A stretch of 64,000 nt of DNA, from positions 124,001 through 188,000 of the forward strand of contig NZ_FNHL01000001.1 in assembly GCF_900103715.1 (NCBI RefSeq). Direction: 5' to 3'. The notes beneath the pieces are model-generated. The model was not told where the DNA came from, searched no databases, and was given only the letters and a program-made list of their open reading frames with translations. A program made the translations under genes and the position numbers. Shown here in pieces: positions 4,916-9,455 of this stretch. The DNA is from Halogranum gelatinilyticum. GTDB lineage: Archaea; Halobacteriota; Halobacteria; Halobacteriales; Haloferacaceae. Each line of letters opens with the position of its first letter. Position 1 is the stretch's first letter.

Positions 4916-5077
4916 CCCGGCGAACCGCTGAACCGCCCCCCAGGCGAGCCATCCGCTCGGCCCGCACGTGCCGCAGGGCGTCAACTATACCCTCCTTCGG
5001 GACGCGCCTCTCGGTATGCGTCTCAGACACACGACTCCCCGCTCTTTCTCTCCCGGTGACTCTCGGAGGTGTCCCGC

Positions 5078-7096
5078 GTGAGCGACAGAACCGTCGTCGG
5101 CGTCGACGTCGGCGGGACGTTCACCGACGTCGTCCTGCTCCGCGACTCGGAACTCGTCACCGCCAAGGTGCCGAGCACGGCCGACCAGAGCGAGGGCGTC
5201 ATGGCGGGCATCGAGAAGGCCTGCGAGAAGGCGGGCGTCGTCCCGAGCGACATCGACGACTTCGCCCACGCGATGACCGTCTCGGTCAACGCCCTCTTGG
5301 AGGAAGACGGCGCGGAGACGGTGCTCGTCACCACCGAAGGCTTCCGCGACGTCCTCGAGATCGGCCGCCAGGAGCGTCCCTCGCTGTACGACTTCGACGC
5401 CGACAAACCGGCACCGCTGGTCCCGCGCCGTCGCCGGTTCACGGTCGACGAGCGCGCGACGGCCGACGGCGTCACGCAGGCAGTCGACCCCGACGCCGTC
5501 CGCGACGTCGCTGCCTCGATTCGCGAGAGCGACGCCGAGACCGTCGCCGTCTGTCTGCTCCACGCCTACGCCCATCCGGAGAACGAGGAGGCCGTCGCGG
5601 ACGTCCTCGACGCCGAACTCGACCTGCCCGTCTCCGTCTCCCACGAGGTCCTCGCGGAGTTCCGCGAGTACGAGCGGACCTCGACGACCGTCGCCGACGC
5701 CTACGTCACCCCGGCCATCGACCGCTACGTCGGCCGACTGGTCGAACGCGCGGCCGACGCGGGTGTCCCCGAACCGAGCGTGATGCAGGCCAACGGCGGA
5801 ATCACCGACGCGACGACCGTGCGGACCCACGCGGTCCGGACCTGCATGTCCGGCCCGGCCGCGGGCGTCGTCGGTGCTCGCGCGAGCGTCGGCGACGTCG
5901 CCGCCGACCGTGACCTCGCCGGTCTCGTCACCTTCGACATGGGCGGGACGTCGAGCGACGTGAGTCTCGTCCGTGACGGCGCGGTCGAACAGACCACGGA
6001 CGCCGAAATCAACGGCCGGCCCATCAAGACGCCGATGGTCGACGTGACGACCGTCGGAGCCGGTGGCGGCAGCATGGGCTGGGTCGACGCCGGCGGCGCG
6101 CTCCGCGTCGGTCCCGAGTCCGTGGGTGCCGAACCCGGACCGGCCTGTTACGGCCGTGGCGGGACCGAGCCGACCGTCACCGACGCGAACGTCGTCCTCG
6201 GCTACGTCGGCGAGAGCACCAGCCTCGGCGGCGAACTCTCCATCGACGTCGACGCCGCCCGCGACGCGCTCGCCAGTCTCGCCGACGAGGCGGGACTGGA
6301 CGGGCCGCTCGACGCCGCTCGCGGCGTCTACCGCGTCGCCAACGCGACGATGACCCGCGCGATTCGCGCCGTCACGCTCGAACGCGGCTACGACCCGCGG
6401 AACTTCGGCCTCGTCGCCTTCGGCGGCGCGGGCCCGATGCACGCGGCCTCGCTCGCCGACCGCCTCGGCGTCGGCACCGTCGTCGTCCCCCGCGGCTGTG
6501 GGGTCCTCTCGGCGTTCGGCCTGCTCGCGGCCGACGAGAAACACGACGCCGTCCGGACCCGCCGCGAGTCGCTCGCAGACGTCGACGTCGAGGGAGTCGA
6601 ATCGACGTACGCGGAACTCGAAGCTGCCGTCCGCGAGGAGTGTAGCGACCCCGACGCCGCCGTCCTCACGCGCAAAGCGGACCTCCGCTACGCGGGCCAG
6701 AGCTTCGAACAGACCGTCGCCGTCGACCGGCCGTTCGACCCCGAGACCGCCGAATCGCGGTTCCACACGGCCCACGAGGCCAGCTACGGCTACCGGATGG
6801 ACGAGTCGGTCGACCTCGTCAACGTCCGCGTCGAGGCTGTCGTCGAGCGGCCTGACCCGGCCGTCAGCTACGACGCGCCCGGCGACGCCGTCGTCGACGA
6901 GCGCGACGCCTACTTCCCGGACGTCGACGGGCCACAGTCGACCACCGTCTACGCCCGCGAGCGACTTCCGCCGAGTGAGGTGGTCTCCGGCCCGGCGGTC
7001 GTCGAGAGCGACGAGAGTACCGTCGTCGTCCCGCCGACGTGGGAGGCGACGGTCCGTGCCGACGGCGCGCTCGCGCTCACGGGGGTGGACCGATGA
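5078..7096 (+). CDS. hyuA: Hydantoinase/oxoprolinase family, A subunit (HyuA)
   Basis: ATP-dependent amidohydrolase subunit of the N-methylhydantoinase/5-oxoprolinase/acetone carboxylase family, 672 residues. The N-terminal VVGVDVGGTFTDVVLL is the phosphate-binding loop of this actin-like ATPase fold. VTFDMGGTSSDVSLV and LVAFGGAGPMHA are further family motifs. I chose the GTG at 5078 because a GGAGGT Shine-Dalgarno lies 7 nt upstream; another GTG at 5069 overlaps that site. hyuB overlaps the stop by 4 nt, so the two are translationally coupled. The substrate (hydantoin, oxoproline or another cyclic amide) cannot be decided from sequence. Confidence 0.9.
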   Translation: MSDRTVVGVDVGGTFTDVVLLRDSELVTAKVPSTADQSEGVMAGIEKACEKAGVVPSDIDDFAHAMTVSVNALLEEDGAETVLVTTEGFRDVLEIGRQERPSLYDFDADKPAPLVPRRRRFTVDERATADGVTQAVDPDAVRDVAASIRESDAETVAVCLLHAYAHPENEEAVADVLDAELDLPVSVSHEVLAEFREYERTSTTVADAYVTPAIDRYVGRLVERAADAGVPEPSVMQANGGITDATTVRTHAVRTCMSGPAAGVVGARASVGDVAADRDLAGLVTFDMGGTSSDVSLVRDGAVEQTTDAEINGRPIKTPMVDVTTVGAGGGSMGWVDAGGALRVGPESVGAEPGPACYGRGGTEPTVTDANVVLGYVGESTSLGGELSIDVDAARDALASLADEAGLDGPLDAARGVYRVANATMTRAIRAVTLERGYDPRNFGLVAFGGAGPMHAASLADRLGVGTVVVPRGCGVLSAFGLLAADEKHDAVRTRRESLADVDVEGVESTYAELEAAVREECSDPDAAVLTRKADLRYAGQSFEQTVAVDRPFDPETAESRFHTAHEASYGYRMDESVDLVNVRVEAVVERPDPAVSYDAPGDAVVDERDAYFPDVDGPQSTTVYARERLPPSEVVSGPAVVESDESTVVVPPTWEATVRADGALALTGVDR

Positions 7097-8751
7097 CGGG
7101 CTCGGAGTCGGACGACGAGACGGCCATCGACGCCGTCACGCTCGAAATCCTCCGCAACCAGTTCGAGAGCGTCGCCGAGGAGATGGGCCAGGTGCTCATC
7201 ACCGGCTCGTACTCGCCGAACATCAAGGAGCGACAGGACTGTTCGACCGCGCTCTTCGACGCCGAGGGGCGGATGATCGCGCAGGCCGAACACATCCCGG
7301 TCCATCTCGGCGCGATGCCCGAGGCGGTCGAGGCCGTCCGCGACCGCGACCCGGAACCGGGTGACGTCTTCATGCTCAACGACCCCTTCGACGGCGGGAC
7401 CCATCTCCCGGACGTGACGCTCGTCTCGCCGCTCGCACCGAGGGGAGAGATCGTCGGCTACGCCGTCTCCCGCGCCCACCACGCCGACGTCGGCGGGATG
7501 ACGCCCGGCAGTATGCCAGCGGGTGCCCAAGAGATCTACCAGGAGGGACTCCGGCTGCCACCCGTGCGGCTCGTCACCGGCGGCGAGGTCGTCGAAGACG
7601 TCATGTCGCTCGTCCTCGCCAACGTGCGAACGCCCGACGAACGCCGCGCCGACCTCCGTGCACAGCTCGCGGCCAACGACCGCGCGGAGGAGCGGCTCGG
7701 CGACCTGCTCGACGAACACGGCGACCTCGTCCTCGACGCGTTCGACGCGGTCATCGACTACTCCCGCGAGCGCGTCACGGCCGAGATTCGCGACCTCCCC
7801 GACGGGACGTACACGGCGCGCGACGTGTTGGAGGGTGACGGCGTGCTCGAACACCGGTCGGGCGTCGACCCCGCAGACGTCGAAATCCCCATCGAGGCCG
7901 CCGTCACCGTCGACGGCGACGAGATCCACGTCGACTTCGCGGGCACAGCGAGTCAAGTCCCGGGCAACCTCAACGCGCCGCTCGCGGTCGCCAAGAGCGC
8001 GGTCTACTTCGTCGTCCGCGCGGTCACCCACCCGGAGATCCCGCCGAACCAGGGCTGTTACGACCCGGTGACGCTCGACGTGCCGGAGGGGTCGCTGCTC
8101 AACCCCGACCTCCCGGCGGCCGTCGTCGGCGGCAACGTCGAGACGAGCCAACGCGTCACCGACGTGGTGCTCGCGGCCTTCGGGACCGCGGTCCCCGACC
8201 GCGTCCCGGCGGGGAGCCAGGGGACGATGAACAACCTCATCGTCGGCAGTCGGACGGGGTCGTTCACCTACTACGAGACCATCGCGGGCGGCTTCGGCGC
8301 GCGGCCGACGAAAGACGGGATGGACGGCGTGCAGGTCGGTATGACCAACACGCTCAACACGCCCGTCGAGGCGTTGGAGACGGCGTACCCGCTCCACGTC
8401 GAACGCTACGGTCTTCGCCCCGACAGCGGCGGCGACGGCCGCTACCGCGGCGGACTCGGTATCGAACGGTCGGTGACGGTCCTCGAAGACGCGACCGTCT
8501 CGCTACTCACCGAACGGCGGCGCGTCCCCCCGAAGGGTCTCGCCGGTGGCGAGGACGGTGCGGTCGGCCGGAACCTCATCGACGGCGACCCGGTCGCCGC
8601 GAAGACCTCAGTCGACGTCGACGCCGACACCACGGTCACCGTCCTGACGCCCGGCGGTGGCGGCCACGGCGACCCGGCAGACCGGGACCCGACCCTTCGC
8701 GACCGAGACCGCAGCGACGGAAAAGTCGACGACACGGCGGGGGAGCAGTGA
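7093..8751 (+). CDS. hyuB: Hydantoinase/oxoprolinase family, B subunit (HyuB)
   Basis: Partner of HyuA, 552 residues. Motifs include [20 protein letters not shown] at the N-terminus, [31 protein letters not shown] and, near the end, [12 protein letters not shown], all characteristic of the HyuB family. The ATG overlaps the hyuA stop. The C-terminal 25 residues are a charged Asp/Arg-rich tail. The next gene, a maleate-isomerase/racemase-like ORF, starts 2 nt after the stop and would complete a hydantoin- or cyclic-amide-degrading operon. Confidence 0.9.
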
Positions 8752-8752
8752 C

Positions 8753-9455
8753 GTGACGCCGCCCGACCCGACACACCACGGCGAGCGGCTCCGGCTGGGT
8801 GTCGTCGTCCCCTCTTCGAACACGACGGTCGAACCCGAGTTCGCGGGCTGGACGCCCGCGGACGTCTCGGTCCACGCGGCGCGGATGCCGCTCGTCGACG
8901 TGACCGTCGAGGGACTCGACGCGATGGCCGACGACGCGGCCGACGCGGCCGCACGGCTGGGCGACGCCGAGGTCGACGCCGTCGCCTACGCCTGTACGAC
9001 GGGGAGTCTCGTCCACGGCCACGGCTTCGACGCCGAGTTGGAGACCCGACTCGCCGACGCAGCAGGCGTCCCGGCGGTCGCGACGGCACTCTCGGTCCGG
9101 CGGCTGCTCGACGCGTTGGACGCGACGCGCCTCGCCGTGGCGACCCCGTACGTCGCCGAGTTGAACGAACGAGAACGCGAGTATCTGGCAGAAGCCGGGT
9201 TCGACGTCGTCCGCCTGGACGGACGGGGAATCGAGCGCAACACGGACATCGGACGACTCACGCCGAGCGACGCCCGACGTCGACGCCCTGTTCGTCTCGT
9301 GTACGAACTATCCGACGCTCGCCGCTGTCGACGAGCTTCGCGACCGGCGTCCGGTGGTCACGAGCAACCTCGCGACGCTCTGGGACCTCTGTCGGGTGAC
9401 CGGTCTCGATAGCGACGGGCTGCCCGGAGCACTCCCCTCGCCGACGCTCGGCTGA
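8753..9455 (+). pseudogene. Maleate isomerase/Asp-Glu racemase-like gene with an internal frameshift
   Basis: Reading from GTG 8753, the first about 172 residues match the maleate cis-trans isomerase/arylmalonate decarboxylase group: LGVVVPSSNTTVEPEF and a catalytic-type Cys81 in YACTTGSLVHG. Around 9265-9275 this frame degenerates into an Arg-rich sequence ending at 9412. One frame over, the sequence continues as ATPDVDALFVSCTNYPTL, the second catalytic-Cys motif, then a plausible C-terminus stopping at 9455. The span is 703 nt, one base more than a whole number of codons, consistent with a single inserted base. The start has a purine-rich GGGGGAGCAG just upstream. It could be a true inactivating mutation or a sequencing error. 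It follows hyuAB and probably acts, or acted, on the same pathway. Confidence 0.8.

Follow-up and report, generated by a model that had tools for sequence, protein, structure and literature searches.

The hyu cluster of Halogranum gelatinilyticum

The window, a 64,000-nucleotide stretch of the H. gelatinilyticum genome, contains a hyuA-like gene, a hyuB-like gene and, directly downstream, a third gene resembling arylmalonate decarboxylases and maleate isomerases. The features relevant here, all on the forward strand, are:

5069–7096, +: hyuA-like gene, intact, 675 aa (Pfam Hydant_A_N, Hydantoinase_A, Hydant_A_C)
7093–8751, +: hyuB-like gene of 552 aa, intact, sharing 4 nt with hyuA (Pfam Hydantoinase_B, 1–519 of 519)
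8753–9455, +: broken third gene (703 nt) of the two-cysteine Amdase/maleate-isomerase-like type
8753–9412, +: frame read from the GTG start of the third gene, 219 aa, of which about 172–174 are homologous and the rest form an out-of-frame tail
8993–8995, +: first active-site cysteine codon, motif YACTTGSL, aligned with PDB enzymes of the Asp/Glu-racemase fold
9264–9276 (best placement 9272–9276), +: probable deletion junction, with 35 nt fewer than H. rubrum and 41 nt fewer than H. amylolyticum
9277–9455, +: rest of the third gene in the other frame, second cysteine codon at 9300–9302

The hyuA-like gene is 85–86% identical to its Halogranum relatives over its whole length, and the hyuB-like gene is 89–90% identical to its relatives. 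The GTG start codon of the third gene, at 8753, closely follows the TGA stop of hyuB (8749–8751), and the conserved C-terminal frame closes with the TGA at 9453–9455. Its length is 703 nt (3 × 234 + 1), one base over a whole number of codons, as an earlier sequence-only reading of the window had reported. That reading had also assigned the two cysteine motifs to different frames and the junction between them to 9255–9290, and both points hold: the cysteine codons at 8993 and 9300 (the latter in the motif FVSCTNY) are 307 nt, or 102.33 codons, apart, which leaves the two active-site cysteines in separate frames, and the frames cross at about 9264–9276. Translation from the GTG start runs into a stop at 9410–9412. 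Both pieces score above the gathering cut-off (25.9 bits) of the Pfam family Amdase (PF17645), the first frame matching profile positions 1–157 with 83.7 bits and the second positions 168–219 with 33.3 bits, so that the gene belongs to this fold family, although its match is broken between the pieces, where about 10 profile positions are absent. A search of the H. gelatinilyticum genome found no second member of the family, and the idea of a spare intact copy was rejected.

The same gene order, hyuA-hyuB-Amdase-like, is present in Halogranum amylolyticum (NZ_FODV01000003.1), Halogranum rubrum (NZ_FOTC01000005.1) and Halococcus thailandensis (NZ_AOMF01000136.1), and in the two genus-mates synteny extends to the downstream genes. 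Up to the break, the third gene is 81–86% identical to its Halogranum relatives and 61% identical to that of Halococcus thailandensis. In all three species it is intact, including the 10–16 codons that are gone from H. gelatinilyticum.

A segment missing relative to intact relatives

Comparison with homologues, which the sequence-only reading had named as a check, upholds the broken state of the gene, as it is a single open frame in both H. amylolyticum and H. rubrum. Relative to H. gelatinilyticum, the former has 41 and the latter 35 additional nucleotides, both numbers being of the form 3n + 2, and the break is best placed at 9272–9276. The spacing between the two cysteines is 112–118 codons in 37 of 37 distinct intact haloarchaeal cores, most often 114, against the 102.33 of H. 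gelatinilyticum. In a multiple alignment, the block between the LTPxDA motif and the strand DVDALFVSCTNY is absent when compared with every intact relative, and the lost segment thus amounts to 10–16 codons just ahead of the strand that bears the second active-site cysteine. The simplest assumption is a loss of 35 nt, which agrees with H. rubrum as well as with the most common spacing, 114 codons. The net surplus of one base in the third gene is then due to a 3n + 2 deletion of about 35 nt and not to an extra base. A single-base insertion was rejected, and with it the one-base change that the earlier reading implied, with a 702-nt gene as the corrected form: with one base removed, the distance between the cysteines is still 10–16 codons shorter than in every intact relative.

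Short repeats are found around the break. In H. rubrum, the two gap ends share four nucleotides, CCCG, and in H. gelatinilyticum CGACGCCC occurs at 9268 and 9281, flanking the junction; no long tandem repeat is present at this site in the relatives. Upstream of the junction, dN/dS to the genus-mates is 0.14–0.21, the first 172 residues being well conserved, and downstream, on few codons, it is 0.26–0.38. Protein-level constraint on both sides is near that between the two intact genus-mates, so that the break is of recent date or else artefactual. Set against its intact orthologues, the third gene carries a disabling lesion, a deletion of 35 or 41 nt, which is one of the marks of a pseudogene.

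Identity of the encoded protein

The best Pfam and PDB match of the haloarchaeal proteins is arylmalonate decarboxylase (AMDase; PF17645; PDB 3IXM and 3DG9). However, AMDases of the Bordetella type carry Gly74 together with one cysteine, Cys188 (PMC4996985), whereas in the haloarchaeal proteins both positions are cysteines. The NCBIfam AMDase equivalog NF052327 has a cut-off of 225 bits, and an intact relative scores 120.5 bits and the H. gelatinilyticum third gene 80.8 bits; by score and by active-site residues, these are not arylmalonate decarboxylases in the strict sense. Maleate cis-trans isomerases (PDB 2XED and 4FQ7) belong to the same fold family by sequence, and the intact relatives have two active-site cysteines, C83 and C199, in one reading frame, but the match is distant, the intact relatives matching PDB arylmalonate decarboxylases and maleate isomerases alike with an E-value of about 1e-20, and the H. 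gelatinilyticum copy retains only one cysteine in frame. The intact relatives are best called two-cysteine proteins of the Asp/Glu-racemase superfamily, with no specific reaction assigned. For HyuA and HyuB, the nearest NCBIfam models are caprolactamase subunits, with scores far below cut-off. A literature search for a haloarchaeal hydantoinase together with a maleate isomerase found no paper. The earlier suggestion that the pathway has lost its last step goes past this evidence, as no step order can be assigned to the product of the third gene.

Lesions in other haloarchaeal clusters

In a sample of 391 haloarchaeal genomes, about 80 copies of the third-gene type were found, counting as copies those matches well above the EutA-like group. 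One of them (G042:C37:36800-38000) has lost about 50 codons, the second cysteine motif among them, through an in-frame deletion, and its frame stays open. Another, on the reverse strand (G346:C1:163700-165400), has a frame change ahead of the second cysteine, and its first cysteine is replaced by Phe (ADAFTTGSL). In a third (G087:C2:1500-2500), the frame changes twice within the first half; the hyuB and hyuA genes of this cluster are placed one at each end of contig C2, an arrangement suggestive of a circular replicon. The lesions in at least these three other copies (G042, G087 and G346) are independent. Some of the lesions in other haloarchaea could be assembly errors too. In the 17 genomes in which hyuA and hyuB were checked, internal stops are present in hyuB of G023 (G023:C9:62977-64572) and in one G149 copy (G149:C1:1065110-1066705), and hyuA is split in G064 (G064:C22:18728-20776). 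The notion that decay is limited to the third gene was rejected on account of these hyuA and hyuB lesions in the same genome set. Since other copies of the third gene, as well as hyuA and hyuB, are broken elsewhere, the broken gene of H. gelatinilyticum is regarded as a commonplace instance of decay in an accessory catabolic cluster. This suggests that haloarchaeal hyu clusters decay now and then, in any gene, as expected of accessory catabolic genes.

Origin of the broken gene

In our view, the third gene is very probably a recent pseudogene, produced by a genuine deletion of about 35 nt in the organism's own genome. The proposed deletion (3n + 2) probably took place between short direct repeats rich in G+C, for example CCCG, with slippage or recombination as a reasonable cause. 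It would take out 10–16 codons and shift the frame, and translation from the normal start would yield 219 residues ending in a wrong tail, without the second cysteine and the C-terminal quarter; this product is expected to lack activity and may be unstable. The upstream hyuA and hyuB are still intact. Separate initiation of the second part was rejected, as its frame has no ATG, GTG or TTG before the cysteine and the first such codon, at 9354, falls after it; with no usual start codon ahead of the cysteine, a separate second polypeptide is unlikely. Out-of-frame deletions in an accessory gene with the other cluster genes left intact are likewise seen in ordinary small-deletion pseudogenes of bacteria and archaea, from which the third gene differs in nothing notable.

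That the deletion is present in the organism itself, as against in the assembly alone, is inferred. An assembler might have dropped about 35 nt between the short repeats flanking the junction from a gene that is intact in the strain, and the nearly undiminished protein-level constraint downstream is what such an artefact would give. However, these repeats are 4–8 nt long, far below read or assembly k-mer length, and the relatives offer no long tandem repeat at the junction. The five neighbouring genes (hyuA, hyuB, band-7, LigT-like and P450) each match the genus-mates unbroken, the assembly has 11 contigs with 99.68% completeness and 0.48% contamination, and a loss of 35 nt amid a clean neighbourhood is not typical of base-calling errors. 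We consider an assembly error improbable, though it is the most serious competitor of a genuine deletion.

Other explanations leave the sequence as it is and assign a function to it. Recoding, by a programmed frameshift or otherwise, would join two frames that together keep both cysteines and most of the conserved residues, but even a perfectly joined product would be 10–16 residues short between the cysteines compared with 37 of 37 intact cores. A programmed frameshift could not give a normal protein because these codons are missing. The genus-mates encode the protein in one frame without a shift, and the position of the break is kept in no relative; the conserved shift site and the joined product of normal length expected of a programmed-frameshift gene are both lacking. 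Recoding, which the sequence-only reading had rightly thought the less likely course, is the least credible explanation of all. It is very unlikely that the truncated product of 219 residues retains a function or has acquired one, such as that of a folded N-terminal domain. The conservation of the first 172 residues and the frame that stays open in G042 after loss of the second cysteine segment would fit such a protein, but the frame-shifted tail matches no family in frame, and in the Asp/Glu racemase fold, which is pseudosymmetric, the two halves and the two cysteines are all in use. Just as doubtful is a broader proposal, in which haloarchaeal hyu clusters can repeatedly do without their third gene and the truncated single-cysteine forms of H. 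gelatinilyticum and G042 keep a non-catalytic role, such as binding the HyuA-HyuB product or complex.

Implications

Most likely, the third gene of the H. gelatinilyticum hyu cluster is a commonplace case of a gene broken not long ago, with no unusual decoding at the site. The finding has little import beyond annotation: no metabolic capability should be read from this gene, which should be marked as a pseudogene with an out-of-frame deletion of about 35 nt.
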